Positions 34,754 to 54,456 of a stretch of 64,000 nt of DNA are shown piece after piece (the stretch's first letter is position 1; the number at the start of each line of letters is the position of its first letter). Below the pieces are notes generated by a model. It was given only the letters and a program-made list of their open reading frames with translations. It was not told where the DNA came from and ran no database searches. The position numbers and the translations under genes are program-made. The DNA is from an uncultured Nitrospira sp. (GTDB taxonomy: Bacteria > Nitrospirota > Nitrospiria > Nitrospirales > Nitrospiraceae), in NCBI GenBank assembly GCA_902500775.1, contig CABVRZ010000015.1, forward strand, positions 1 to 64,000, read 5' to 3'.

Positions 34754-35728
34754 ATGAGGATTCAATCTATCCTAGGGATCTCTAAGACAACGATTGCGAC
34801 TGGTTTCTTGTTACTGTCGCTAGCAGCCTGTGACACCATGAATATTCCAGCAGGCGGAGCGGCTGACTTGCTCAAAAAGGTTACGCCAGTAGCTGACGAA
34901 AAGCCCCCTGTTGATTCTCCAGAAACATTCGCGAAATTAGTGAATTGGGGAAACGATCAGTACAACACAGTAATCGAACAACGAAAACAAAAGAATGAAA
35001 TAGAAACAAGTACGAAAGTAACTGATCAAATGGATGGAATCTTTATACGGCTGAAGTCAGCGGCGTTATCCGACCAGGAGTACGGCGCGGTCGCGAAGGA
35101 TATGGATTGGAGACTCAACACGATACGAGACAAAGAAATTGTCATGGTAAGGGCGTATCCTGGCGGTGGAGTTGCGATCTATGATGGACTATTCCCGGTT
35201 GCGGAAACTGAAGGAGCATTAGCTGCCATATTGGGGCATGAGATGGCCCATGTACTGGCCCGACATGAACTCAAACGCATAGCGGGTCACACAGCTGTGG
35301 CAGGAGCAGCCGTGGGATCTGGAGTTGCATTAGCCATGGAACCGGACAAACTGGATCGACAAGTCATGGCTGGAGTAACTGGTGCGGTGGGACTCGCCGA
35401 TCTAGCTGTAGGGAACAGGCTATGGACACAATCTCAGGAACTAGATGCAGACTGTCTCGGCCTAAAGTTGGCAGCCAAGGCCGGATACGATCCAGAAAAA
35501 ATCCAAAGGTTTTGGGAAAACATGAAAACAAGAACAGACAAAAACCCAAACAACCTGCCTGATTTCCTGAAGGACCACCCTATCAACGATAAGCGTCTTA
35601 ATCATATCAAGTCAGACAAATGCCTAGGGCCCGCATCGAGAATATACAGTGCTCAGATTGAACAGTTACGGGCGAGGAACGAGACGCCACCGGATTCTAC
35701 AAAACCGCTACCAGGCGTCGCGGGATGA
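34754..35728 (+). CDS. M48-family metalloprotease lipoprotein
   Basis: The 324-residue product has a lipoprotein signal ending in the lipobox LAAC (Cys26). The zinc-protease motif HEMAHVLARHE is near residue 164, with the third ligand Glu in SQELDADCLGLKLA. This is the LoiP/BepA-like periplasmic type of M48 that clears misfolded outer-membrane proteins. TGGAGGTGA precedes the ATG. A second lipoprotein gene follows after 37 bp and is probably in the same transcript. A sigma-54-like promoter with paired activator sites lies upstream. Confidence 0.9.
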   Translation: MRIQSILGISKTTIATGFLLLSLAACDTMNIPAGGAADLLKKVTPVADEKPPVDSPETFAKLVNWGNDQYNTVIEQRKQKNEIETSTKVTDQMDGIFIRLKSAALSDQEYGAVAKDMDWRLNTIRDKEIVMVRAYPGGGVAIYDGLFPVAETEGALAAILGHEMAHVLARHELKRIAGHTAVAGAAVGSGVALAMEPDKLDRQVMAGVTGAVGLADLAVGNRLWTQSQELDADCLGLKLAAKAGYDPEKIQRFWENMKTRTDKNPNNLPDFLKDHPINDKRLNHIKSDKCLGPASRIYSAQIEQLRARNETPPDSTKPLPGVAG

Positions 35729-35765
35729 GGGCGACAATATAGACAGAATATAGACAGGACAAAAA

Positions 35766-36755
35766 ATGAGACCCAGAAAGAGTCTATCCCCAACCACGGG
35801 CAAAGCCGATAGGTGGGGTTTAAGCCTCCACTACTCACGCTTGGTTAGCGCCTTTGTGCTTCTTATGATAACTAGTGCGCTGGTCGCCTGTGGAATGGGG
35901 ATCGCCGAACACACCGTGATGAGGAACGACCAAAATCAAAGTAAAATAACGGGAAAAACGCTCTTGATTGGCGACAAACCCGAAACACCTAACTATGGGC
36001 TTTATAGCTATGTGCTGTTCGAGTCTCCCCCAACTGCCGCGACCAAGCCCATCTACCTTGCGATCATTTCAGCTTGCCTGAAAGAAGTTCCGGATCTCGA
36101 CAAATTAGAACAGACCTATCCTGATAGGAAGATGCTCAATGCGATGTTCATTCCGGTCAAGGTGTTTCCGTTTGAGCAAACTGAACACAACTCAGTCACC
36201 GGTGACAGCACAAATTCTCAGGTGCCACAGCCTGAACACGTACAGTTGAGGGCAAGAGCGGAACAGATTCTTGAGCAATACAACTACGATCGGGCCCGAG
36301 AGATTCTCCGAAAGCTTTCCAATGTCCAGAAAAATGGTGGGCCTTATCTCGCCTCCAGTCTTGTGCCAGTTTCAAGTGGAAACGGGACAAGTTCCTTCTT
36401 GTTTCAAGATTTGTCGGTGATTCGCTCAGTGTCCAGCCAAGACGAGCAGACTGAAATGGCCTTTCAGTGGGTGCTCGACTTCGTCAATCGAATCAGCAAC
36501 CCACGATCCATTGCCTGGGGCCGTCCCCTACTGGATCAATTCCTCAACAAGACACTGGATTCAATGCAAGTCGCATTAACTCACCGTGGAGTGCCAGTCA
36601 CCCAGCCACAACTCAAGGAGTATGTCAGCCTTAGCGATATAGTCTTCCAACCTGAAGATAACTCGTCGAAACGAACATTTCTTTTCCCCCAGGGAAACCT
36701 AGCGGGTAATGGTACTCTTGCCTTTGGGATCGATCGTTTTTCGTACCGAGACTAG
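35766..36755 (+). CDS. Lipoprotein of unknown function
   Basis: The 329-residue protein has a hydrophobic stretch FVLLMITSALVAC ending in a lipobox-like LVAC at about residue 42, preceded by an unusually long basic N-terminus. The mature part shows no recognised domain; a helical segment RARAEQILEQYNYDRAREIL resembles one TPR-like hairpin. It follows the M48 lipoprotein gene and is probably co-expressed. Its last 57 bp overlap the 3' end of the TIR-STAND gene on the opposite strand. The spacer before it contains a direct repeat of AATATAGACAG. Confidence 0.65.
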   Translation: MRPRKSLSPTTGKADRWGLSLHYSRLVSAFVLLMITSALVACGMGIAEHTVMRNDQNQSKITGKTLLIGDKPETPNYGLYSYVLFESPPTAATKPIYLAIISACLKEVPDLDKLEQTYPDRKMLNAMFIPVKVFPFEQTEHNSVTGDSTNSQVPQPEHVQLRARAEQILEQYNYDRAREILRKLSNVQKNGGPYLASSLVPVSSGNGTSSFLFQDLSVIRSVSSQDEQTEMAFQWVLDFVNRISNPRSIAWGRPLLDQFLNKTLDSMQVALTHRGVPVTQPQLKEYVSLSDIVFQPEDNSSKRTFLFPQGNLAGNGTLAFGIDRFSYRD

Positions 36756-39572
36756 CTTCTTCTCAGAATCAGTCTTCGCCAAGGCGTCAAAAAGAAGGAG
36801 TCTGCGCCGGACAATGCCCGGCTCGTGAGTAAGGCTATGGGCGGCCCCGTAGGCAATGATGGCTTCATCGAGGTAGGGTTCGTTCAATGAAAGCGTCAGG
36901 CCACAATAGCTCAATCCCATTGTATCAAGCGCTCGGTAGTACGCGGACGTTTGATTGAACACCAGTTCAGCTTGATTACGTGCTTTAAGAAAAGCTTTGG
37001 CTGCCTCAGAATTTTTTTCCAACCGATACAGTATAATACCTCGAAGAGAGTGAGCTTCTGGGCTAAAAAGTGGTGTATTGAATTGCACTGCCTCGTTAAC
37101 AATCTTTTCTCCATCTTCAAGCTTAGCGGTCAGGAGATAGGCCGTAGCCAATTCAATCCTGGTAGTTTGCTGCAGTTGCCTATTCTGAGTGGCATCAGCC
37201 AGTTCTATTGCCTTGGTGAGGTGCTCAACAGCGAATATGTATTTTTCTCCATTTAGATTGAGAATTCCCAGGTTTCTCCTCGCAGCAGACTCCCCAAGTT
37301 GGAATCCGATATCTTTGGCTATCTCGCAAGCCTGCTTGCACTTACCCTCTGCCTTGTGGTCATAACCCTGTGCCTCAAGCTGTTGTCCAAGATTGACGAG
37401 CGCAACCACTTCACTCTCCCGCTGATCATTCTCACGTGCGAGTGTCAGCGCTTGTTCACTCGCTCTCATTGCATCGGAAATCTTCCCTAGACCGGCCCAC
37501 GAATCACTGAGGATGTTCCAGATATGAGCCTCCCAGGCCTCGTCTTTCGTCTGTCGAGCCAACTCTAGAGCGGCCATGCAGTAGAGCGCGCTTCCCACAA
37601 GATCGCCAGATTCTTGCATGCAAAGGGCGAGATTCCCGAGGTAGCGCCTCTCCCTTCTCCGATCGGACACATTTAGAGCACACTCCAACCCCTTTTCATA
37701 ATAATCTGCTGCATCATCGAGTCTTCCGAGCCGATGATAAATCCCGGCGAATCGATCAAGATGGCGGCATACAAGGTCACTGTTTTCCGGCTTGCGAGCC
37801 AGTTCTTCAAAATATCCATCTAACTTCTTGTAACATTCTGTTAGCTCCTGGTAACGCCCCAGCTGATTTAGATGAGGTTCAAGTTGTGTCAATACGTTGA
37901 CCGCATCTGGGTAGTTCTTCTGTTTGTGAAGATGGTTAAAGAGCAGAATGAGCGAAGCAGCCTCAGTTGTCGGATCGCCCGCTAAAACATCCTGTTGATT
38001 GCAGTCGCTGACTTGAGAAGCCACATACCGCCGGTCAGTTTCTTGAAGGAGGTACCCTTCATTTGTTTTTTCGACCAGCTGCATTACCGTCAACTGGTCC
38101 AGAACCTGCCGAGCATCGATGTCCGGATAGTCGTACCGGAACGTCTTAACCACAACTTCTGCTCTAACAGGAGTGTCGGATGACGACAACACTCGCATCA
38201 TGGCCTTAGAATCCTCATCAAGACAAGCGTAGCTTTCCCCGATGAGGGCGTTAAAGACATCATCTAGATAGGGCAGGTTTTCATCCCTCAGAATATCTCG
38301 TGGTGAAATTAAAGGATTTGTTTTTAGCACAGCGTGTATAGTCTCGATCGCGCGGGGATTGCATTGCGTGAACCGGCACAGTTCGTTCAAGAGTTTGTCA
38401 TCGCCTTGAAGTCCTAGACTGCTATCCTGAGCCAATCTCTCGAGTAGCTGGATAGCTTCCGATCGTGGGAGTCCACCACCTAAGTTTCGGCTATCCCACC
38501 GGCCAAGTAGATCCGTAGGCAAATCATCTGGAACAATCTGAGAGGTCCCAATCACTTTTAACTTATGATTGGTGAGGGTAAGAACGGTCTGTAGGGCATC
38601 ACGAAGATTCGGATCAGTCAGTTTTCTAGTCTTGAGATCAATCAATTCGTCAAGGTGATCGACTAGGAGTACCACGCGGTGATCTGATAGGCCTGAAAGT
38701 AGATGTGCGATCGTTGAGGCAAGAGATTTCTCTCGTGGGGTCAGGCCTGGTACAGGAGGTATTGACTTGCGGATCTTATCCAGCAGATTAAGCCAATCCG
38801 GCAGGGAATGGTGATTCTGATTAAGATAGGAAACGGCGTGGATGGGAACCATGCGCCCTGAATCAGTCCACTTTCCACGTTGGATTTCGTCAAGCACATG
38901 ACAGGTTAGCGCCGTCTTCCCAGATCCTGATCTCCCCCAAATCCAAAGTACTGAGCTAGCGTCATCGGACAGGAAACCTTCAATGAGCCGACACTGTTCA
39001 GTACGTCCGACGAAATGGACCGATCCTCGAGTCGTAGGTTTATTGATCACGATCGGCTGAATCTCGCCAGGGGAAGTGGCTGTGGGCACTACAGGCTCGG
39101 TCGTGACGGGAGGCAGCTGACTTTCTTCCTGATCTTGCACCAGAAAGTCATGGAGTTCATTGAGGCCATCTTCAAAACTTGATGAGAAATCAATAAATTT
39201 TCGGATACTTAGTCGTAGGGGGAGATCTATATTGGAATCAATGCACAGCGAGACAATCGTCTTATTTTTTCTAAAACCTCGATCCAACTCAGCCTGACAG
39301 TACTCACTTTTAACGCTGTTGGTGGTTGCAACAAAAAGTATAGTGCTACAGATGTCGATTGCTTGTTGAATGGTGGGGTCAATTAGGGATCCCGCTCGCA
39401 GGTCACGCCGATCGAACCAAACTGCAAACCTCTGAGGGCCTCTCTGAATTCCCCTTCTAATTTTTTCCACATTTGCATGATCGGCATGGTCATAACTAAT
39501 AAAATATCGGGGAGTCCCGATATCATGGACTAGTGGATTGGGGACATGGCTGTTTGAAAGATTAGTAGACAT
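36699..39572 (-). CDS. TIR-STAND ATPase-TPR protein (bacterial NLR-like)
   Basis: The 957-residue protein has three regions. Residues 20-145 form a TIR domain: RYFISYDHAD, FDRRDLRAGSLI and SVKSEYCQAELDRGF, with a Glu at 95 where NAD-cleaving TIR domains have their catalytic Glu. Residues 185-520 form a STAND-type ATPase with Walker A GRSGSGKTAL (213-220) and Walker B VVLLVDHLDEL (300-310). From about 570 to 920 there are many TPR repeats (for example LGRLDDAADYYEKGLECALN). Proteins of this layout act as sensors in antiviral and signalling systems. It is last in an operon behind the GTPase gene (24 bp gap). The trigger is unknown. Confidence 0.88.
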   Translation of the reverse strand: MSTNLSNSHVPNPLVHDIGTPRYFISYDHADHANVEKIRRGIQRGPQRFAVWFDRRDLRAGSLIDPTIQQAIDICSTILFVATTNSVKSEYCQAELDRGFRKNKTIVSLCIDSNIDLPLRLSIRKFIDFSSSFEDGLNELHDFLVQDQEESQLPPVTTEPVVPTATSPGEIQPIVINKPTTRGSVHFVGRTEQCRLIEGFLSDDASSVLWIWGRSGSGKTALTCHVLDEIQRGKWTDSGRMVPIHAVSYLNQNHHSLPDWLNLLDKIRKSIPPVPGLTPREKSLASTIAHLLSGLSDHRVVLLVDHLDELIDLKTRKLTDPNLRDALQTVLTLTNHKLKVIGTSQIVPDDLPTDLLGRWDSRNLGGGLPRSEAIQLLERLAQDSSLGLQGDDKLLNELCRFTQCNPRAIETIHAVLKTNPLISPRDILRDENLPYLDDVFNALIGESYACLDEDSKAMMRVLSSSDTPVRAEVVVKTFRYDYPDIDARQVLDQLTVMQLVEKTNEGYLLQETDRRYVASQVSDCNQQDVLAGDPTTEAASLILLFNHLHKQKNYPDAVNVLTQLEPHLNQLGRYQELTECYKKLDGYFEELARKPENSDLVCRHLDRFAGIYHRLGRLDDAADYYEKGLECALNVSDRRRERRYLGNLALCMQESGDLVGSALYCMAALELARQTKDEAWEAHIWNILSDSWAGLGKISDAMRASEQALTLARENDQRESEVVALVNLGQQLEAQGYDHKAEGKCKQACEIAKDIGFQLGESAARRNLGILNLNGEKYIFAVEHLTKAIELADATQNRQLQQTTRIELATAYLLTAKLEDGEKIVNEAVQFNTPLFSPEAHSLRGIILYRLEKNSEAAKAFLKARNQAELVFNQTSAYYRALDTMGLSYCGLTLSLNEPYLDEAIIAYGAAHSLTHEPGIVRRRLLLFDALAKTDSEKKLVSVRKTIDPKGKSTITR

Positions 39573-39596
39573 CTGGTAATAGGCCTGGATGGCTGT

Positions 39597-40694
39597 TCAG
39601 GATTCTGACGGTTGTCGATGGAGGTCAACCTTCTGATCTTGTATATGTTGGAGATAGGCCCTAAGGTTAGGGGCAAGTCTCTTAATCACCAGCCATTTCC
39701 GATAGCCGATCGCGGTCGCTGTGAATTCGAGATCAAGGGTTTCGTGACCTTCCCACTTTTCAGCCTTCCAACCTGAACAAAGTTTGCCTGTCCTGTGCTC
39801 ATTCCACCAATTCTTGGCCTTAGGCATGAACTGCTTCAAAGAAACAGCAATTTCAGTCCAGAGCTCCTGGTGGGGCTGGTTGGAAAACCTCTCGATTAGA
39901 CATAGAGCCCAATCGGGCACATCATCCCGCATCGACCGAAACGCATGGCCATCTGTGCATCGCTCAAGTACCAGGCTATCCAGTGCTTCAAACAGATTAT
40001 TGAACAGGGCTCGTTCTTCCTTTTCTGCAGGAAAAATTGAAGAACTGTTATATTCAAGGTCCCTCTCAAGGATTGGCACTTCATAACTTTTTGGATCGGC
40101 CAAATCCATAGGCGTATCCCGGTCATCACCCGTGAGTTGCTCAGTTTGACTCTCACACCGCCTATCGATCTCGAGCATCTGCTTTGCTAGGTACTCGAAC
40201 GCCGCATTCACCCTCTCGCCAGTTTTGGCACTGGTCTCAAAAACCTTCGTGCCATCTCCAAAGAGTTCAAGGGCACGTTTAGTTACTGCGGAAGATTGAA
40301 GGATGTCCTGCTTATTCACTAGAAGCACAAATGGAGGATCGTCTGTATCGGAGCGGATACTTTGCTCCTTTGCAGCCGAGATGAGGCCGTTCGCTACATC
40401 AAGCGTGTCGGGACGAGTGACGTCCGCAACCAGGATATAACCCTCGGCGTTTTCTAGGGAGTCATCGTGGTGTGCCTGCCGTGGATCGTCTGTTCCGGCT
40501 AGATCATAAATATTCAACTTGACTAGTTCTTCATCGCATATAACAGACGTGTCATACAGTTGAGTACCAATCGTGGTCCTATAGTTTTCATCGAAAACTT
40601 TCTCTACAAATTGTTTGACGAGCGAAGTCTTTCCTACGCCACTCGCACCCAGCAAGCAAATCGTTTTGCTTTTGCTGCTGAGCGACCGTGTCAT
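39597..40694 (-). CDS. Rab/Ras-like small GTPase with a novel C-terminal extension
   Basis: Residues 10-172 form a Ras-superfamily G domain: G1 GASGVGKTS (16-24), switch I TTIGT, G3 DLAGTDD (64-70), G4 NKQD (127-130) and G5 TSAK (154-157). The Gln that normally follows DxAG is Thr, so intrinsic hydrolysis may be altered. Residues 190-365 have no recognised fold; they are Trp-rich (DWALCLIERF, KNWWNEHRTG, KAEKWEGHET). There is no C-terminal Cys for lipidation. Its ATG overlaps the stop of the OmpA-type gene (4 bp), so the two are translationally coupled. Confidence 0.88.
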   Translation of the reverse strand: MTRSLSSKSKTICLLGASGVGKTSLVKQFVEKVFDENYRTTIGTQLYDTSVICDEELVKLNIYDLAGTDDPRQAHHDDSLENAEGYILVADVTRPDTLDVANGLISAAKEQSIRSDTDDPPFVLLVNKQDILQSSAVTKRALELFGDGTKVFETSAKTGERVNAAFEYLAKQMLEIDRRCESQTEQLTGDDRDTPMDLADPKSYEVPILERDLEYNSSSIFPAEKEERALFNNLFEALDSLVLERCTDGHAFRSMRDDVPDWALCLIERFSNQPHQELWTEIAVSLKQFMPKAKNWWNEHRTGKLCSGWKAEKWEGHETLDLEFTATAIGYRKWLVIKRLAPNLRAYLQHIQDQKVDLHRQPSES

Positions 40695-42538
40695 AGCCTG
40701 GGCCCCGCCGATGCAGAATCGTTGACTGTGACATGAAACGATACTTGTCGTGTCCGTAGAGATTTGGTTCCCCGTGCTCCAGTCGTTGCCGAAGGGTCGA
40801 CTGGAGCAGCAACCGCCCTGAAATTGATGGTCGTGAGCTGTTCGACATTAAGAATGGACATGATCCCTCGTGCACGTGCAAGCGCTAGGCGACGATTCAG
40901 CTCGGCAGAACCCTCATCGCTGGTATTGCCATGAATCTCCACCTGTATTCGATTACCAAGTTGCTGGGCCAGCTCATCGCATTTATGAAGCGTCTGGAGC
41001 AATACCTGTAGTACCGCCCCAGGTTCTGCCGTAAGCGACGCACTACCTACCTCGAAGTCCAGATAGGACGCTTCAATTTCTTGAACGAGTTCAGCAAGGC
41101 GCAGCCGATCTTCGTCTTGAAGTCCAGCATCTTGTATCGATGTAACACCCGGAATCGTCGGACTGGCCCTCCGAAACTGTGCAATCCAGGCATATGGTGC
41201 AGTACCGGTTATGTTCAATACCGTCGTACCATTTTGGACTGAGAGGCGGACCGATTCTGGCGCATGTAAGATGTCCTTGGCCCTTCGCGCCACCAGTTCG
41301 GGCTGCAGCGATAGGTAAGGTTCAAGTTGAAAGTCAATCGCGTCGGTTGATAGCCCCACCTCCTGAGCGATTTTCTGCGGATCATCAGAGAGCGGATCAC
41401 GCAAGCCGTACACAATGGTCTTGCCGTCCTTTCCATAAGTAGCGTCAATGGATGTGATGTGGATACCATGCTTCTCCCTGGCCTCATCCTGAAATTCTGC
41501 CCATCGCTGTTTTTCATCAACCTCTCGCCGCCATTCGAGGTAAGTAGTAATGCCCCACCAAGCAAGCGCTCCCACTAGGAGTGCCAGCAAAGCAACCTGC
41601 GCAGGCGACACGCCGCCATTGGCCGAGCCTTGCTTGTTTGAGGAATCACTTTCCTCGTGGAGGAGACATGTCTCTAGATGCGGTCTTGCAGCCTCGAACG
41701 GCTTCTTGTCGCCTCGGAAATTCTGAAGGGCCTCGTTCAACTCCAAGTGGATAGTGTCGAGTGCATCCTGAAGTGCGGTGCGGAGTGACGGCAATGGCAA
41801 ACCAAGAACAACAGCGGCCAAGACGGCTTTAGAGCCTTGCTCGATCAATACCATCTTGCCATCGTCCATTTTGAATTCATTCATGGACGCATGTTGGGCG
41901 GCCTGAAACTCATCTTGGGCAAACTTTTGTACCGCCGTCTTGATCCTGGAAAACATGCCCGTAACCAGATCCTCATGGCCCGGATCAAAAGGTTGTATGC
42001 CGGGACCATCGACATTACAAAGTTGTGTGCCATTCTCCCTATAAAAAAGAAATACCCGTTCCACGCGGTATTTCATAGTGTGAGACAAGACGATTTCTCC
42101 GAATGGTCTGCCAGTTTTCCACGCCTCCCAGCGCCACGTCATCCCTCGCCAAGACAAACCGCTGTGGTCCAATGTTCGATTCACCGACTGCGCCATGCCT
42201 TGCACAGCAGTCTCAATGGCCTTCCGAATAGCTGGCATCATCACAGGGGAAATTGCATCGGCAATGAGTTTTGGCGAGCCTTTGATACCACGGACGAAGA
42301 CCTTCCCGATGAGAGGTGCCAGAGATTTTTCGAGTTGCTGGTCCTGCTTGGCGCGTTGACAGATAGCATTCGGCAAGACATTGGCGACGGCGGGCGAATC
42401 AATCACCGAATCCCTGAGGCGTTTTTCGAGTCGGTCGAGTCGGTCTCGCTCCGCCCGAAGCAGCACTTTTTGGATTTCTTCGAGGCCGTCGCTTGTCGGG
42501 TGAGCTGTCAAGGTGCTGGGTTCTTGAGAGTCGGACAT
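40691..42538 (-). CDS. Single-pass membrane protein with C-terminal OmpA domain
   Basis: The product has 615 residues from ATG 42538 (GGAG 7 bp upstream). An N-terminal soluble region (1-310) contains IRKAIETAVQGMAQSVNRTL and LSWRGMTWRWEAWKTGRPF, a pattern I associate with OmpA-domain proteins of cyanobacteria and proteobacteria. One transmembrane helix follows (about 312-334, VALLALLVGALAWWGITTYL), then a BON-like stretch (RLSVQNGTTVLNITG) and an OmpA/MotB peptidoglycan-binding domain (480-600, with IQVEIHGNTSDEGSAELNRR). The C-terminus should be periplasmic and the N-terminus cytoplasmic, where the GTPase encoded next could bind. It has no cleavable signal peptide. Confidence 0.83.
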   Translation of the reverse strand: MSDSQEPSTLTAHPTSDGLEEIQKVLLRAERDRLDRLEKRLRDSVIDSPAVANVLPNAICQRAKQDQQLEKSLAPLIGKVFVRGIKGSPKLIADAISPVMMPAIRKAIETAVQGMAQSVNRTLDHSGLSWRGMTWRWEAWKTGRPFGEIVLSHTMKYRVERVFLFYRENGTQLCNVDGPGIQPFDPGHEDLVTGMFSRIKTAVQKFAQDEFQAAQHASMNEFKMDDGKMVLIEQGSKAVLAAVVLGLPLPSLRTALQDALDTIHLELNEALQNFRGDKKPFEAARPHLETCLLHEESDSSNKQGSANGGVSPAQVALLALLVGALAWWGITTYLEWRREVDEKQRWAEFQDEAREKHGIHITSIDATYGKDGKTIVYGLRDPLSDDPQKIAQEVGLSTDAIDFQLEPYLSLQPELVARRAKDILHAPESVRLSVQNGTTVLNITGTAPYAWIAQFRRASPTIPGVTSIQDAGLQDEDRLRLAELVQEIEASYLDFEVGSASLTAEPGAVLQVLLQTLHKCDELAQQLGNRIQVEIHGNTSDEGSAELNRRLALARARGIMSILNVEQLTTINFRAVAAPVDPSATTGARGTKSLRTRQVSFHVTVNDSASAGPRL

Positions 42539-42669
42539 GGCCTTGCTCCGGTGGTCAAGCAGATCCCAGGTGCAATAGATCACCTGGGGCTTCAAAATGA
42601 GGATTCTGTGCGATCACAGGCACACTGCTTTTGTTCCCCTCCTACCTCTGTATAGAGACTATGGATCTA

Positions 42670-43296
42670 TCACTTCCCACGAGTGGGGGCGAGGTCTCCA
42701 CTTAACGACTGCGCAGATTTTTCGAACAATTCTGCGAGTACGGCACGCGTGACTTTTTCCCGACGCAATTCAGCTAGGGCTGCTTCCATGGCATTCGAGA
42801 GTTCTTCGTTTTTCTTTTGCATCTCCGTCGACAGAGTCTGCTGTTGATCAGCAATACGCTGGTGCAATTCTCGGCTTTTCGTCGAGGCTTGCTGGTCCAG
42901 TTGCGCGGTGCTGGTGGCAACCGTCTTCCCCAATTCCTTCAGGTCGTGCATAAGGCTGGCAGTCGCCTGCGCCCGGCCTTCGTGCTCGTTCTTGATCTGA
43001 CCCGTCAGCGCTTCGACTTGTTGTTTGACGAACGATTCAAGCGAATCGAATCGACTATCCAATTTCTGTGTCAATTCGTTGGCTACGCGAGTGAGCGATT
43101 CTTCAAGCTGCGTGATGCGCTGTGCATGTTCCCGGAATTGCACGCCAAAGAGCAGTTCCTGGACCCTCGCCAGACCATCGGGAGTATTGCTGTTCACCTC
43201 CAGCGATTGGCTACGGCCCTCATCATCGGACCCGGTTCCTTTGTTGGTGTGCAAGGAGGACTTCGGTGACTCTCTCTCAGTAGTGGGGGATTTCAT
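42670..43296 (-). CDS. Soluble coiled-coil protein, first gene of the GTPase/TIR operon
   Basis: The 208-residue protein is mostly coiled coil from residue 45 to 195 (FREHAQRITQLEESLTRVAN, LDSRFDSLESFVKQQVEALT). The N-terminus is Ser/Thr-rich and charged. Residues 39-50 (DGLARVQELLFG) resemble residues 17-28 of the OmpA-type protein encoded next (DGLEEIQKVLLR), suggesting a shared docking or oligomerisation motif. A ribosome-binding GGAGG lies just upstream of ATG 43296. It begins the operon whose other members are the OmpA-type protein, GTPase and TIR-STAND protein. Confidence 0.75.
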   Translation of the reverse strand: MKSPTTERESPKSSLHTNKGTGSDDEGRSQSLEVNSNTPDGLARVQELLFGVQFREHAQRITQLEESLTRVANELTQKLDSRFDSLESFVKQQVEALTGQIKNEHEGRAQATASLMHDLKELGKTVATSTAQLDQQASTKSRELHQRIADQQQTLSTEMQKKNEELSNAMEAALAELRREKVTRAVLAELFEKSAQSLSGDLAPTRGK

Positions 43297-44032: not shown

Positions 44033-45986
44033 TTAACGCTGTACAGTTACGGTCGTTGCCGACCTAGCATCAAATGACACACGCATCGAAGAGATTTGGA
44101 CCGTCACTCGATACTGACCTGGGTGAGGAAAGACAGGCGTGATCTCATAGACCCCATTCCCGAGGCCGCGGGCCCCAACACGCTGCTGCCATGTACCCGG
44201 AGGCTCAAAGAGCAACACCTGCACATCCGTCAGCTCGTTCATAGGTTGATTTGCCTGTGCATCCAGGATCTTAAATCGCAACGATACTGGTGTTCCCGTG
44301 GGAAAGGGTTTGTTATCGAATAGCCGTTGAATGCGTACTCTTTCTTTAACCGTTTCGGCAACGTCGCCAGGATGAGACGACGCCTTGACCTGCAATGGCA
44401 TACACACGACCGTAGGTGGATTCTCTGTAAGGAGATGCAGGTCGTATGTCCCCGCGCTTGGAAACGTGACCACAGCTTCATACCGGCCCGTGTCGGCCTG
44501 AACAAGGCTTCGGTTGAGTACCAGAACAGCGTGTGGACGGCGTTGATAGGTCTGTAGCGTACCCATGGGCACCATCATTCCTTCCATATAGTAGTACAGT
44601 GCCCGTTCCGGAGCATGAGCGATCCACGCGCCGTGTCCATCGGGAGTAGGGACAATCATGTCGGCAACGTTTAGGTCAGATGGAGTCGACTGAGGAAAGG
44701 TATGGCCAGCGGGAATGTCGGTGACGGCTAAGCTCCCTTTTTTAAGCAGACTGAGATCAATGAGGGAGAACTTATCGGACCCAATGCCGCGGACATAGGC
44801 AAAATGCTGGGTAACGGTGACTTGGTCAGGCTCTTTCACGACTGCAGCAGTGGCTATAATCTGCCCCTTGAAGGCGTCCAGCGCAGAAACGGTCCCCTCA
44901 ATTTGATTAATGGCCAACCCTATGTTCCCTTCAGGCTCAAATCGTAGCGCGACCACACCTGCTTTTATCGGAATGGTAGCTACGACTTGTCTCGCTTGCG
45001 GATCAATGACCGTGACGGTATCTCCATTCAAGCCCACCGCATAAAAAAATCCACTAGCGCGACTATACGCCAACGCAACCGGCGTACGACTGGTGGGTAC
45101 TGTCGCGGCGACCGTGAGGTCATCAAGGCCGATCAGGGTCACAGTGTCATCGGCTGTGTTCGTCACGGCGATGTAGCGATGATCGCTGCTGAAGGCGAGG
45201 GTGTGCAGGCCCTTTCCAATATCAATCGATTTTATAATGTGATGGGTTTGGGTATCCACCGCAACTAACGTGGAAGAGTAATCAAGGCCAACCCACAAGC
45301 GGCGATCATCCGGCTCCAATGCTAGGCGTGAAGGGGTAGTCTTATCACCGGTGGAGATGACCTGAGCGACCTCTCCTGTATCTGTTTTGATCACTGCCAC
45401 AGCCGACTTGTCAGGAATCGTGACATACAACCATTGCTGGCTTTGCGATAACGCCCAGTCTCTTCCTTGCCCTGGCAGGGTGATCAGTCGCTCCAGCTTG
45501 GAGGTATTCAGGCCAACCTGCGGATTAATGTAGGAAATGCTATTGTCATGGTTCAGAACAAGAAGCGAATACGCATTCAAATCAACGTCGGCTCTTCCGC
45601 TCAATGTCCCTTTCAGAAACCCCTTGATCTTGTCACGACAGGAAATCTCCTCGGCAACTTGGTCGGAGCGCCGTAGGTTCAGCCATGCTTTCGGACGCAC
45701 ATCACCCCGCGGACGGCCACTCACAGGGTCTTTAAATACCACACGCACATAAAGGGGCTCCTGTGCTTGAAGCTCGTGCTGAGCGGCTGAACCTGGCTTG
45801 ACCGCCGGCGAAAGAGAGAAATCGATCGCTAGATTTAATTCGTTGAGTGCACGGTGAAAGACCGCTGCGTAGGGCGTAGAAGACATACTGCGCTGAGCCG
45901 TTGGATGATCGTGCGCGTAAGACACACCGGCCAGCGCAGCAGTCACACAGAAAAAGCCAACCACTCGCGCTTGGTTACCGACCATT
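44033..45986 (-). CDS. Exported YVTN beta-propeller protein with C-terminal Ig-like domain
   Basis: The product has 650 residues from ATG 45986. A signal peptide (GFFCVTAALAGVSYAHD) is followed by an N-terminal beta domain. A seven-bladed YncE/YVTN-type propeller occupies about residues 150-450 (SAVAVIKTDTGEVAQVISTG, NTADDTVTLIGLDDLTVAAT, NGDTVTVIDPQARQVVATIP). A C-terminal beta-sandwich follows (VSLRFKILDAQANQPMNELT, GVYEITPVFPHPGQYRVTVQ), resembling FixH or copper-associated domains. There is no CxxCH haem motif. It is the last gene of the multicopper-oxidase operon and overlaps the preceding gene by 12 bp. Confidence 0.8.
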
Positions 45987-46613
45987 TTTTCTGATCTTCC
46001 GAGTCGCACGAGCTCTGGAGTGTTGAGCCGTCGGAGTCGTCAAGAGACGCAGCGAATCGATAATGAATCCAAAATCGCAATCCTGTGCCGTATCAAACTC
46101 GGCACACACGATATTGGCCTGGTCGCTGATCGCTCCCAAAAATGGGGCAGTCTCTGTTGACGTAAAACCACCGGTTCCACTGACAGTATATTCGGCCACA
46201 GGCACTGCATCCCGTTTGGTCGATTCATACACACGCAAAATACCTGTAAATCTTTGCGTTGGGCTCACCGAAATCCGAGCCCCCACACCTGCCACCGGAG
46301 TATCAAACGTCAGAGTCAGGGGGCCATCGTCCCTGCCCTCAACGGTGGAGACCAACTTTTCGTTAGGAGCGAAGCTGCCGCGAAAATTCGTACTGCCACC
46401 ATCAGAGGTCTGGTCCAGTCGACGAATTTTTTCAATGAGCCCCCCCTCGCCATCATCGACAGTATGAGAAACGTCAATTCGGTTATTAGCAGTAGAAAAA
46501 AATGGATTCGTCCACAATGGATCAACGTCGCCCTGTGGTAATGATCCCCCTTCGGACCAATCAATCACATCATCGAAATCACGATGATTCGATGTCTGAG
46601 TGTAGTTGGCCAT
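45975..46613 (-). CDS. Unknown beta-rich protein of the multicopper-oxidase operon
   Basis: The 212-residue protein starts at ATG 46613 behind GAGGAGG. It lacks a classical signal peptide yet looks extracellular, with many Ser/Thr/Gly and beta strands (LTLTFDTPVAGVGARISVSP, VPVAEYTVSGTGGFTSTETA). The pattern TFDTPVxGVGARI resembles domains found near PEP-CTERM-type exported proteins. A basic tail (RARATRKIRKNGR) ends it. It overlaps the propeller gene by 12 bp. No function can be assigned. Confidence 0.65.
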   Translation of the reverse strand: MANYTQTSNHRDFDDVIDWSEGGSLPQGDVDPLWTNPFFSTANNRIDVSHTVDDGEGGLIEKIRRLDQTSDGGSTNFRGSFAPNEKLVSTVEGRDDGPLTLTFDTPVAGVGARISVSPTQRFTGILRVYESTKRDAVPVAEYTVSGTGGFTSTETAPFLGAISDQANIVCAEFDTAQDCDFGFIIDSLRLLTTPTAQHSRARATRKIRKNGR

Positions 46614-46664
46614 AGCTCCTCCTCTCTTAAGCTTTCCCTGAAAGATGAAAGATTCTACCTTGTG

Positions 46665-48206
46665 CTACTGCCTACATGAGCTGGAAGCAGGCGGCACGGT
46701 AGGTGATGGTGCCGGGTTGCCTGGCCAAGGATTCAGCTGCCCGACGATAGGCGTGCCGGCAACTCCAGCATGGTCAAGGGTAGAAAGCGGTCCAGAACCT
46801 TGCGTCAAAAATGGCAAACAATGAAAATTGAAGGGAACAAGATCATCTCCCCAGCGCGTATTTTCCGGGAAAATGATTTCCTGGATCGGTGCCGTGTACC
46901 GTCCGGGGCCAGGACCGGGGTCAGGTCCGGCGTTAAGATCTCCGACGTGACGAATCCGAACCAAGAGCTCTCGCGGTGGTGGTAAAAATCGCGGATCTTT
47001 GTCGAGAACTTGCCGAAAACGCCCGAATGGGACCGCCTGTGGTGTGATGGTCGTTAGGCGTCGCAGCGTTCTATTTCCGCTCGTTGGATGCACGTCCACG
47101 GCATAGACATCAACGACGCGGGAAGGATCCGTGGTGAATCCTTCTACCTTCAGTCGATTTTGCACTTCTGTATCAATCTGATCAACTCGTGGTCCAGCCG
47201 CCCCCATGATGGAAACATCCTGATTGACGTAGGCCGGATCAGTCCCTGGTGCTGTAAAAATACCAAGCCAAGCCGTCAACTTGTAGGCTGAAATAAACGT
47301 TTGGTTCGTAGTATCCCTGGCCAAGATCCCTGCATACATCACAAAGTCGCCAGCTTCAAAGGCAGCCATTTTTGTGGGATCGCATACTGCAGTGGGACAA
47401 TTTAGGATTGGAGCATTGCCGGGAATCGGAGGTGCTAATGGGTTTTGGCCTATCACAAACTCCGTGCGCGGCTTTCCGCCCATCTTTGGCCGGTTCTGAC
47501 TAGGCGCGCAGAATGAGACACCACTGCTCGGCACACACATAGGATATCCTGTTTGTGCGCTGATGGCCGGATTGTCTGGATCAGTCGCAAATCGCCGATC
47601 GGCCGAGACCGGACGGCCATATTTCCCATCCGGATCGTTAAGCACTAGACGAACATCTCCCGGTTGCCTAGTTGTCGCTAAGGGACTGGCCCCTATGAAA
47701 AGTTCTCCAGTTCCACTGACGATTTCGTGTATGTATCCTCCTGCATTGTTAAGAGAATTTTGTGAAATGCTGACAAGCCCAGCGATGTAGCGGCATCCTA
47801 CGACCGGCACACAGACAATATTGCCCTGGATAGAAGCCTCATAGGGGGCGATGGGAGCCGGACTCGTGTCAGTAACAGCAAGGCCAGATTGTGGGAGTGG
47901 TGAAGGGTCAGCCTGAGGACCACGAAAAATATCATGAGGCGTCAGATAGCTGCCGGGCATCGTGATGATGGAGTTACAAGGGACAATGATATCAAGTCCG
48001 TTGACCTTCATTCGTGCTCCAACCAGCAATGAACTGCTCGATGGACCGGGGCACACGGATTTTGCCCCATCGAGCAATTCAAACTCTTGAATAATTCCAA
48101 AGATATCAAACTGAGTCCCTTCATTGAACACCGCCAGGGCATGCCCCTGGATTCCAACCGACGTTACCGTCAGCCATATCCAAAAGAATATTTGTGACCG
48201 TTTCAT
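46665..48206 (-). CDS. Exported unknown protein encoded next to the multicopper oxidase
   Basis: The 513-residue protein has a signal peptide (IFFWIWLTVTSVGIQGHALA). The mature part is beta-rich with eight or more Cys in pairs (NIVCVPVVGCRY, CPTAVCDPTK, MCVPSSGVSFCAP), suggesting disulfides, and a Pro-rich C-terminus (GNPAPSPTVPPASSSC). It contains DLNAGPDPGPGPGRYTAP near residue 430. No known domain is recognised. It lies 53 bp downstream of the multicopper-oxidase gene, and such partners probably act with the oxidase outside the cell membrane. Confidence 0.7.
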   Translation of the reverse strand: MKRSQIFFWIWLTVTSVGIQGHALAVFNEGTQFDIFGIIQEFELLDGAKSVCPGPSSSSLLVGARMKVNGLDIIVPCNSIITMPGSYLTPHDIFRGPQADPSPLPQSGLAVTDTSPAPIAPYEASIQGNIVCVPVVGCRYIAGLVSISQNSLNNAGGYIHEIVSGTGELFIGASPLATTRQPGDVRLVLNDPDGKYGRPVSADRRFATDPDNPAISAQTGYPMCVPSSGVSFCAPSQNRPKMGGKPRTEFVIGQNPLAPPIPGNAPILNCPTAVCDPTKMAAFEAGDFVMYAGILARDTTNQTFISAYKLTAWLGIFTAPGTDPAYVNQDVSIMGAAGPRVDQIDTEVQNRLKVEGFTTDPSRVVDVYAVDVHPTSGNRTLRRLTTITPQAVPFGRFRQVLDKDPRFLPPPRELLVRIRHVGDLNAGPDPGPGPGRYTAPIQEIIFPENTRWGDDLVPFNFHCLPFLTQGSGPLSTLDHAGVAGTPIVGQLNPWPGNPAPSPTVPPASSSCRQ

Positions 48207-48258
48207 GTTAGCAATCTCCTCGTACTAATCGTTCATCACTCAGATAGAAATCGGTAGG

Positions 48259-51200
48259 TCATTTGTTATGCGCTGTTGAACGCGTTCGACAGCGCTGTGT
48301 GTCAGTTTCATCATAGACGCAGAGAATGCCCCACAGCCCGCTATCGAACTGGAAGGACTCTTGCGTTCGATATAAATAGTCACCAGGAACTTTACCTGGC
48401 CCCCCGGCAGTGGTCAGCACATTGACATGGCGCGTTGGGCCTAGTCCTCCAGCTGAACCGATTCGATTGGTTGTGCGCACCGGCTCTCCTTGAACCGACG
48501 AATCGCATGAAGAAGTCGTGTTCTTACTGCATTCCCAGGGCGACATGACCCAATCATGCCCGTGGAGCGTGAACCCATGTTGCCGAGAATGACCGGCGGG
48601 ATTCACGATCCGGAACCGAACAGGATCACCGGCCTTGGCGATAAAGAACGGAGTGACTGGGTCACAGGGCACTCCTGAGCAACCCGGATGTACAACTTTT
48701 GAGCTCAACACATCTTTATGGTCAACTTGGTTCAATGTTTCGAGATCAACTCCTGGGCTGAGTCCGAGTCTTGCCCAAAGCGGCTCTGTCCGATAGTTGA
48801 AGGCTTTCTGTCCCAAGTCGTAGACATCGTCGACGCCCTCCCGATTCACGATCGGATCGCCGTTCATGCGTAGGCTGACATCATCTTGATACAAGAGCAC
48901 GAACTCGCGGAAGATTTCTTCTACGCCGGATGCATTGGTATATCGCACAGTAGCCGATGCCTCGGTGCTCGGATCTGATGTCCACACCGCCCCCTTGGGC
49001 TCAATGATCAGCGCACCGATGGCGCCATGGGAACTGTGTTTAATAACATCGCCCATATCTCGAAGCGGAATGGCCCCAAACTCGATCGCAACAGCCTCCG
49101 TTTCTCCTTGGGCGGTTTTCTTGAATTCACCGGCAAACCATTCGTACGTTTTGGCCTTGCCTGGTGCGACCGTACTATCGAGGTTCAAACCGACTGCCGC
49201 CCCATCCTGTGCCCTAGTATTCATCTCCACCAGTGCGGCGTGCAGACTGACTCGATTGGACATTTTAATCTGATTAAAATTGAATCCCTGGACGATCCCC
49301 GGCATCTCATTGGCCGACCAGCTGTCTCGAACGTCAGGACCATCTTTTAGCTCGTACGGGAGGTGATTCTCGAGAGTAACTCTCAGGCAGTCCCCGGCCG
49401 CTGCTCGTAAAATAAGCGGTTCAGGGATACGGTCACCTGCCTCATAAGACTTCCTCAGCATAAGTTGGAGAGGCCACCCCTTATGATTGAAATTAATGTG
49501 TGTCAGTGTTTCTTTACGAAGTGCTTGATCGTTTTGCGAAGGAGTTCCGAGTTCATCGAGTAAAAGCTCCAGCAGTTTTTCATGGTCATCCTTTTGGTTT
49601 TTCTCATCCGACTGGTTTTTCAACTCGTTAAGAACTTTCTGATACGCACTGACTTCCGTCGCCATGTCCACAAATATGATCGCGTTCGGATCCACGAGTC
49701 CAAATAAATGGTTATACGTGAGTGTGCGTTTCGGAAGAATATCCTTTGCAAGCCACGCCCCAACAGTAACCGTGCGGTAAGCCTCTTTGGTGAGATTCGT
49801 AGGGCAGACATCCTGACTATCGGCTGAGGGGTGACTCGTTGAGGAGTCGTGAAGGCGAGGCAATCCATCCCACTCCAACTTTGTTTCATTCGTCCCGATT
49901 TTGGCGCCGCGTTTATATCCACGCATGATCCCCCAGGCACCGTGCCAGAGATTACCTACCTCGGGGGAAGCATACAAATAATCGCTGGTCTCCCCCTCGT
50001 CCAAATGCATATCGAACTCAAAATGTTCAGAAATGCCGAGCTGCTGCGCATTGGTCCAACCTGATCTCACTGAATCGGGCTGAGTCGGCCATTTCACTCC
50101 GTGCATGTTGAAGACGTGTTGGGATTCCTGCGCTCCCTGAATCAGTCGAATATTGACTCGCTCGCCTTGATAGGCGAATAGTAATGGCGTAGCTGGGTCA
50201 CCAGGAACTCGAAGCGGAGGCTGTTTGATATTCGCACTAGAATCCGTATAACCGTTCATGAGCGTTGCATTGAGTTGTGAGCTTCCAAGACTGGGACTAT
50301 TCTCAAGAAAGAGAAATTCTTTATCGGCCTGTTGATCGCCATGCACAACGGAGTTAAATGCGTAAGCTACATCTCCATCGCAGTACTCTTGGGCTTGTTT
50401 TATTTTCTCGAATGCTTCCAAAGTGAGCGGATTGGGGTACCGATTTCTCGCGTTGGAAAATTCGACCCGCGCAGCCTCAACGGTAGTTGATCGACATTTT
50501 GACCGCTTGTCCTTCTCCTCACGATCTTTTTTTTGTTCATACTTGGAATCAAAGATGCCAGTTCTCTCCTTCTTGGCAATGCGCAAGGGAATGGGTTCAT
50601 TGCGATAGTTGAACAGGGCCGTGCCTGGGTCAGAAGGCGAGATGCCCTGTGGGTTTGGTTTCATCTGACGAACTCGAGGGGACGGAATGTTGACTTCTTC
50701 ATGACGATGGTCTGGGTTCACCGGCCAGTTGTCTTCGTTGTACACAATCGCGAAATCGGCCACGGCAAGATTGTATTCACGAACCCCTTGTTTCGGATCA
50801 GTGGACGGACCAATCAGCGCTGCATAGGATGTTGGTCCCCCATCATGACGGCGATCGATCGCCTTGAGTGGCGCACCATCCTGAGCACTGCCGCCCATGG
50901 GGCTCCCATCAAGTTTCCGCCAAGCCGACCCCTTTGGCTCCACCACCAAGGCGGCGTAGAGCCCATGCTGCTGGTGCGAGCTCGGCCCAAAGTGATCATG
51001 CGTAAATACCGTCCTGAGGGTCCGGTCATCTCCTTGATTATTCAGCAGGGGATCGACCCACCAACGTTGCACCGTGGTTTGCGCGCCACACCAGGGATGC
51101 TGATCCCAATCCTTCTTGTCCATCGAGGGCGGACAGATCCCGCGGGCATCGCCCCTGCCGTCGTGGAACATAGCGCCACCCGCTGCAAACATCGGATGGG

Positions 51201-54159: not shown

Positions 54160-54456
54160 CGGTCTCCAATATGTCATCACAATTTGCAGCAGTCATTCCC
54201 CTAGCAGATATCCGTCCTGATATCTGCCTTTTCTAAGACATCGAAGTCGTAATGGTGGGAAACGCCGTGCCTATCGGTGCCAAGACATGCTGTCGATTCA
54301 TGGCCCCTCCTCGCATCAAGTCGTCGCTAAGAATGTCAGTCGTTTTTCGTTACTCGTTGATTTCCAAGATCAGACATCTCAGCCTCAAGTGAGTTCGCCC
54401 TTGTATACCTCCAGTAGATGTCTGGCAAGTGTTCTTACGTGTATGGCGTGAAACAC

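Follow-up and report, generated by a model that had tools for sequence, protein, structure and literature searches.

A variant Group 1 Rup GTPase module in Nitrospira whose output gene encodes a TIR-STAND-TPR protein

Introduction

Group 1 Rup GTPases are encoded alongside a coiled-coil protein, a protein combining a conserved domain, a transmembrane (TM) segment and an OmpA domain, and a fourth gene that specifies the output (Wuichet & Søgaard-Andersen 2014, PMC4316618). The output is typically a c-di-GMP enzyme (DGC/PDE) or a histidine kinase, with an N-terminal region that carries an invariant glutamine; the GTPase lacks a catalytic glutamine of its own, for which supply in trans has been proposed, and the module was experimentally uncharacterised at the time of the 2014 survey (PMC4316618). 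Longin and roadblock proteins regulate small GTPases, chiefly by serving as exchange factors (PMC10933270), and in the DO-GTPase/GAP1 conflict systems a GTPase serves as a threshold switch with variable effectors, TIR domains included, often near the membrane (PMC7159879).

Here we analyze a locus from an uncultured Nitrospira species, contained in a 64,000-nucleotide stretch of DNA (the window). A first-pass annotation could not put a name to its four-gene set; the arrangement is that of Group 1 Rup (PMC4316618) and thus already known, and what is new is a variant with a TIR-STAND-TPR protein as the Group 1 Rup output.

Results and discussion

Gene layout and Group 1 Rup assignment

An ORF check bore out the four co-oriented minus-strand genes proposed in the first-pass annotation. 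The module opens with the coiled-coil gene (42670–43296), followed by genes for a longin-TM-OmpA protein (40691–42595), a GTPase comprising a fusion of Ras-like and adaptor domains (39597–40694), and the TIR-STAND-TPR protein (36699–39572). The predicted 4-bp overlap was found between the OmpA and GTPase genes, and a 24-bp gap separates the GTPase and TIR genes. Within the OmpA gene the ATG at 42538 (residue 20) is conserved across homologs, and the gene probably starts there rather than at the TTG at 42595. Convergent with these genes, on the plus strand, lie a lipoprotein gene (35766–36755, with an LVAC lipobox) and a gene for an M48 metallopeptidase lipoprotein (34754–35728, with a HEMAH motif); both accompany the module in 4/4 species, and the pair (34754–36755) is part of the same conserved unit as the four minus-strand genes. 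A Pfam scan returned Ras at 8e-28 and TIR_2 at 8.5e-18, with AAA_16, NACHT and TPR also exceeding the cut-off. On its other side, the module adjoins genes at 44033–54180 for a beta-propeller/YtkA protein and a 1973-aa multicopper-oxidase-like protein; one related genome, G149, has a similar large oxidase there.

The locus contains Ras-like G1–G5 motifs, a coiled-coil partner homologous to the canonical Rup coiled coil (E in the 1e-30 range) and the conserved domain-TM-OmpA protein. It shares with Group 1 Rup systems these two partners, a GTPase lacking the G3 glutamine, an adaptor with the invariant glutamine, and a fourth gene that is the output. It differs in that the expected kinase, DGC or PDE with an N-terminal adaptor is replaced by a TIR-STAND-TPR protein without one, the adaptor being instead fused to the GTPase or free; in the addition of the lipoprotein and M48 genes; and in the high divergence of the locus. 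Because the defining paper describes its outputs as "typically" of those classes, we treat the difference in output as marking a variant rather than as grounds for exclusion from Group 1 Rup.

A Zorya-like system was also considered. Zorya (ZorAB) likewise places a coiled coil and an OmpA-type envelope protein ahead of an effector in the cytoplasm, but it has no GTPase, and the locus has no motor protein. This candidate was rejected: the matches to the PADLOC models are weak, with the coiled-coil protein reaching only ZorA tails and the OmpA protein matching ZorB at E 0.0095, and the MotA-like motor of ZorA is absent.

Distribution of the module and of its TIR variant

Relatives of the OmpA protein occur in 24 of 59 near relatives and in 44 of 296 genomes of the phylum, and a scan of 84,980 species genomes yielded 427 confirmed loci with the core module. 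The best 80 of these 427 were mapped along with two rhizobial plasmids, and the groups named in their record titles include Nitrospirota, Acidobacteriota, sulphate-reducing and other former Deltaproteobacteria, Cyanobacteria, Latescibacterota and Verrucomicrobiota. In a survey that covered the best 80 of the 427 loci and domain-scanned part of their outputs, the outputs identified were sigma-54 activators in Nitrospirota, histidine kinases in cyanobacteria, hybrid kinases that include receivers and Hpt domains, an HD-domain protein, and an adenylate/guanylate cyclase on a Mesorhizobium plasmid. Among the best 80 of the 427, the only TIR output was that of G302, a relative from the same genus. 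In the open-access literature searched, no paper described a Rup system with a TIR output or a longin domain. The first-pass annotation had suggested checking whether the four-gene set recurs in other phyla: at least six phyla have the core three, with other outputs, and the TIR version was seen in this genus only.

Several loci showed features of their own. In one from Blastocatellia (L137, 10789–11921), two Rup GTPase genes stand in tandem. In nine cyanobacterial loci (L132, 14327–17446, and eight more), the Rup module is followed, after one to several kb, by a gene for a conserved protein of about 1040 aa, found in Nostocales; the protein's sole match is a weak one to a DNA-binding protein.

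Within the genus, exactly four of 79 genomes encode an ortholog of the TIR-STAND protein: that of the window (G000), G094, G302 and G149. In all four the gene order is coiled coil, OmpA, GTPase, adaptor and TIR-STAND-TPR, followed by the convergent lipoprotein and the M48 peptidase. Rather than being adjacent in one genome only, the genes therefore occur as a set in four species, in keeping with the earlier proposal that they form a unit. Recurrence in three further species, and of the core module in hundreds of loci, places the arrangement beyond chance.

Each of the four carriers also has a canonical sigma-54 Rup operon elsewhere, on another contig in the window's genome. In a quick tree of OmpA proteins, the TIR-type sequences formed one clade (support 100) on a long stem (0.82), joined to other Nitrospirales (99). 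Origin by duplication of the resident canonical operon was rejected, since the TIR-type clade lies apart from the canonical copies of the same genomes. Carriage of the TIR type by phage or plasmid was likewise rejected: there was no phage match, and the plasmid matches were three rhizobial Rup modules, the single annotated one of which encodes a cyclase as its output.

The GTPase and its displaced adaptor

The Ras-like domain of the Group 1 Rup GTPase (residues 1–178; 40161–40694, minus strand) was assigned by Pfam and by its G motifs GASGVGKTS, DLAGTD, NKQD and SAK, with the G3 motif DLAGTD lacking the catalytic glutamine. Assignment to the DO-GTPase/GAP1 systems (PMC7159879) was rejected, as the GTPase belongs to a different family and no GAP1 was seen.

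Residues 215–365 (39600–40052, minus strand) form a second domain. The first-pass annotation had credited the GTPase with an extra domain of its own; the domain exists, but BLAST, HMM and hhalign comparisons identify it as a displaced Rup output adaptor. By BLAST it matches the adaptor found at the N-terminus of canonical outputs (E 3e-14 to the L016 locus), and a profile of the four TIR-type adaptors retrieved outputs of the sigma-54, cyanobacterial kinase, hybrid kinase and HD classes with E values between 1e-20 and 1e-11. The hhalign probabilities were 99.5% against sigma-54 outputs and 97.8% against cyanobacterial kinases. A near-invariant glutamine (Gln349) is present in 114 of 115 adaptors and an invariant tryptophan (Trp262) in 115 of 115; in a second adaptor set both residues are invariant, with the glutamine in 56 of 56 rows. 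We infer that Gln349 is the published invariant glutamine of Rup outputs. Folded alone, the adaptor gave a predicted model with a pLDDT of 85, whose top structural rows were all PAS or LOV domains at a moderate Z of only 7–8; the fold may be PAS-like. In G000 and G094 adaptor and GTPase form a single fused protein, and in G302 and G149 the adaptor has a gene of its own; the natural fusion is direct evidence that GTPase and adaptor work together.

A second type of Rup adaptor, of about 120–130 aa and either free or output-fused, lies between GTPase and output in other loci (L016, 3470–3832; L119, 11223–11624). By hhalign no homology between it and the window's adaptor was detected (probability 0.1%).

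A predicted longin domain in the OmpA protein

The OmpA protein consists of cytoplasmic helices and a predicted longin domain, one TM segment at about residues 331–354, and a periplasmic OmpA-like end. The single-pass topology and OmpA-like end described in the first-pass annotation were found, with two reservations: the Pfam match scores 21.5 bits, under the 27.2 cut-off, and the aspartate of the usual peptidoglycan-binding motif GHTD is replaced (GNTSDEG). We regard the match as real but count its score against the functional interpretation preferred below.

For the cytoplasmic part, a search of PDB sequences with the family profile gave nothing convincing, and fold comparison alone was informative. 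An AF2 model of residues 1–340 is good at about residues 175–311 (pLDDT mostly 85–98, weaker in loops) and has longin topology, beta-beta-alpha-beta-beta-beta-alpha-alpha. Foldseek and VIA comparisons of the predicted domain (residues 175–316; 41648–42073, minus strand) placed it close to the longin domain of Sec22b (VIA Z 13.2, rmsd 2.8, 124 residues), with further matches to CPLANE Fuzzy (13), TRAPP and Mon1-Ccz1 (10.5–12.6), AP sigma subunits and an Asgard roadblock-longin protein. The conserved cytoplasmic domain is thus predicted to adopt a longin fold, and because the model was built from 53 family members, the prediction applies to Rup1 systems generally; it concerns fold, not function.

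The locus would then share with the eukaryotic longin Rab regulators (Mon1-Ccz1, TRAPP, CPLANE Fuzzy) a longin fold beside a Rab-like GTPase, although here the domain is bacterial and sits on a TM-OmpA protein, and the likeness is one of predicted fold only, at 5–15% identity. Similarly, MglA/MglB and the actinobacterial conservons (CvnA-D) couple a Ras-like GTPase under a roadblock/longin-superfamily protein to bacterial signaling; they differ in GTPase family, whereas the present locus places its longin-like domain in an envelope-spanning protein and has a TIR effector.

The TIR-STAND-TPR protein

On the minus strand, the output gene encodes a TIR domain (residues 16–150; 39123–39527), a STAND NTPase domain with the Walker A motif GRSGSGKT (residues 187–520; 38013–39014) and TPR repeats (residues 546–957; 36702–37937), all assigned by Pfam. 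As in the bacterial and plant TIR-STAND (TIR-NLR) proteins, a TIR effector, a STAND switch and a repeat sensor share one chain; the window protein differs in being the output of a GTPase module, with activation probably occurring via the GTPase.

The glutamate used for NAD cleavage was correctly recognized in the first-pass annotation as retained, at Glu95, in a WCxxEL-type position and in 4/4 orthologs, but it is not diagnostic. The closest solved TIR structures are those of TLR2 and MyD88, with the NADases SPARTA, Cat1 and SARM1 ranking lower. TLR2 is a scaffold and has the same glutamate, so Glu95 does not separate an enzyme from a scaffold. This resemblance is what one would expect if the locus performed ordinary Rup signaling, with the TIR acting as a non-enzymatic assembly domain and a STAND-TPR regulator replacing the sigma-54 activator, with no role in killing or defense; every other Rup1 output identified is also conventional signaling. 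Against this explanation, which we judge unlikely, the protein has no DNA-binding or kinase domain by Pfam, and two further points emerge from the companion genes and from the divergence of the locus.

Lipoprotein and M48 companions

Strong relatives of the lipoprotein are confined to the four genomes that carry the cassette. Weaker relatives were found in five other Nitrospira species, at seven loci, each directly 3' of a TIR-TM gene, the junctions being mostly 4-bp overlaps and in two cases short gaps. This recurrence directly downstream of a TIR gene makes the lipoprotein family a recurring TIR companion, which counts against ordinary signaling. The seven loci themselves (L199–L205; for example L203, 6699–8452) are two-gene operons of a TIR-TM-TM protein and a lipoprotein-like protein with a YGLYSY domain; several adjoin CHAT-TPR proteins, and they look like a separate TIR system.

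That lipoprotein relatives pair with TIR genes elsewhere without a Rup module could also mean that the locus comprises two neighbors rather than one system, a TIR-STAND-lipoprotein-M48 unit having inserted downstream of a Rup operon that lost its output. We find this improbable. The whole unit is kept in 4/4 species with GTPase and adaptor intact, even though no kinase or activator is there for the adaptor to serve, and the 24-bp spacing of the GTPase and TIR genes also speaks against it.

In G149, a remnant of the TIR-STAND C-terminus is followed by a second lipoprotein/M48 pair (L198, 4578–6869), so that the remnant lies between two pairs. The M48 protein of the second pair is 64% identical to that of the window and closer to the window allele than is its counterpart in the neighboring pair.

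A sharply diverged block

All four loci adjoin the same MutS2-side genes, 79–99% identical; the other flank is common to the window and G149 and is not shared by G302 and G094 beyond about 250 bp. The divergence comparison covers four genomes, a small sample, among which G302 and G094 are sisters. Their DNA is 92–97% identical over the coiled-coil gene and the greater part of MutS2, with 88% where the aligned stretch ends, and their canonical Rup proteins are 93–98% identical. From the start of the OmpA gene to the start of the M48 gene, DNA identity is 44–83%. At the protein level, the coiled coil is 98% identical and the remaining proteins far less so: OmpA 68%, GTPase 57%, TIR 34%, lipoprotein 46% and M48 46%.

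In quartet tests, MutS2, the canonical OmpA and the coiled coil support ((G000,G149),(G302,G094)). TIR, TPR, lipoprotein and M48 reject this species tree in favor of (G302,G149) (AU p ≤ 7e-4), while OmpA, GTPase and adaptor favor no tree and STAND shows a non-significant preference for the species tree. The fused or split state of the adaptor tracks the (G302,G149) grouping, not the species tree. The block arose either by allele exchange or from tandem copies or paralogs with differential loss, the latter counting against our preferred interpretation; either one implies several divergent copies at one site.

These data bear on each explanation. A locus so mosaic and so highly diverged, unlike the canonical Rup copies of the same genomes, counts against ordinary signaling. 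The species-tree signal of the coiled coil, set against that of TIR, TPR, lipoprotein and M48, accords with two separate neighbors, but the divergence of the TIR gene is shared by OmpA and GTPase. A further possibility is a locus for self/non-self recognition or interbacterial antagonism, at which lipoprotein, M48 and OmpA alleles recognize kin or attackers and a mismatch triggers the TIR, as with fungal incompatibility NLRs. Highly diverged alleles with a sharp edge, copies exchanged or differentially lost at a fixed site, secreted lipoproteins among the co-diverging genes and the remnant of a second copy in G149 would all be expected of it. We nevertheless consider it rather unlikely: phage defense fits the same pattern, and neither a secretion system nor a toxin/immunity pair was identified beside the locus.

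Proposed function

The interpretation we prefer, and to which we give roughly even chances, is that of a diversifying conflict locus at which an envelope-sensing GTPase switch gates a TIR effector, a Group 1 Rup module having been rewired to an immune-type effector. The order suggested in the first-pass annotation, from envelope through GTPase switch to TIR effector, appears the likely one. The OmpA end and the lipoprotein/M48 pair would report envelope disturbance, for example phage contact; the longin domain may act on the GTPase as longin and roadblock proteins act on Rab and MglA, by exchange or activation; the GTPase and adaptor, with Gln349 possibly completing the active site, would license STAND oligomerization; and the clustered TIR domains would then probably consume NAD or produce an NAD-derived signal, leading to cell arrest or death. 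The sequence diversity at the locus would reflect an arms race.

As read from the sequences, the Rup precedent for gene set and glutamine, the breadth of the core module, the TIR variant in four species that each keep a canonical copy, the adaptor homology, the predicted longin fold, the divergence block, the rejection of the species tree by four of the gene trees, the G149 remnant and the link between lipoprotein and TIR suggest this interpretation. Counting against it are the TLR2-like TIR, the restriction to four carrier species and the PADLOC results, which gave no full-length match for the module proteins (only partial TIR, TPR or coiled-coil matches) and none for ten other window proteins scanned. 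More tentatively, and with appreciable doubt, the locus may be a bacterial immune pathway in which a Rab-like GTPase, switched by a longin envelope receptor, licenses a TIR-NLR effector, with alleles exchanged between species under conflict.

The locus thus draws attention to a TIR-NLR output under a Rab-like GTPase, a predicted longin domain in a widespread module, and a sharply diverged block. Apart from the TIR question, assigning a predicted longin fold to the conserved "unknown" domain of Rup systems and locating the output adaptor with its glutamine give this widespread module testable roles. If the proposal is true, a small GTPase of the Rab/Ras type would control an NLR-like TIR effector in bacteria, joining themes of eukaryotic trafficking and innate immunity.
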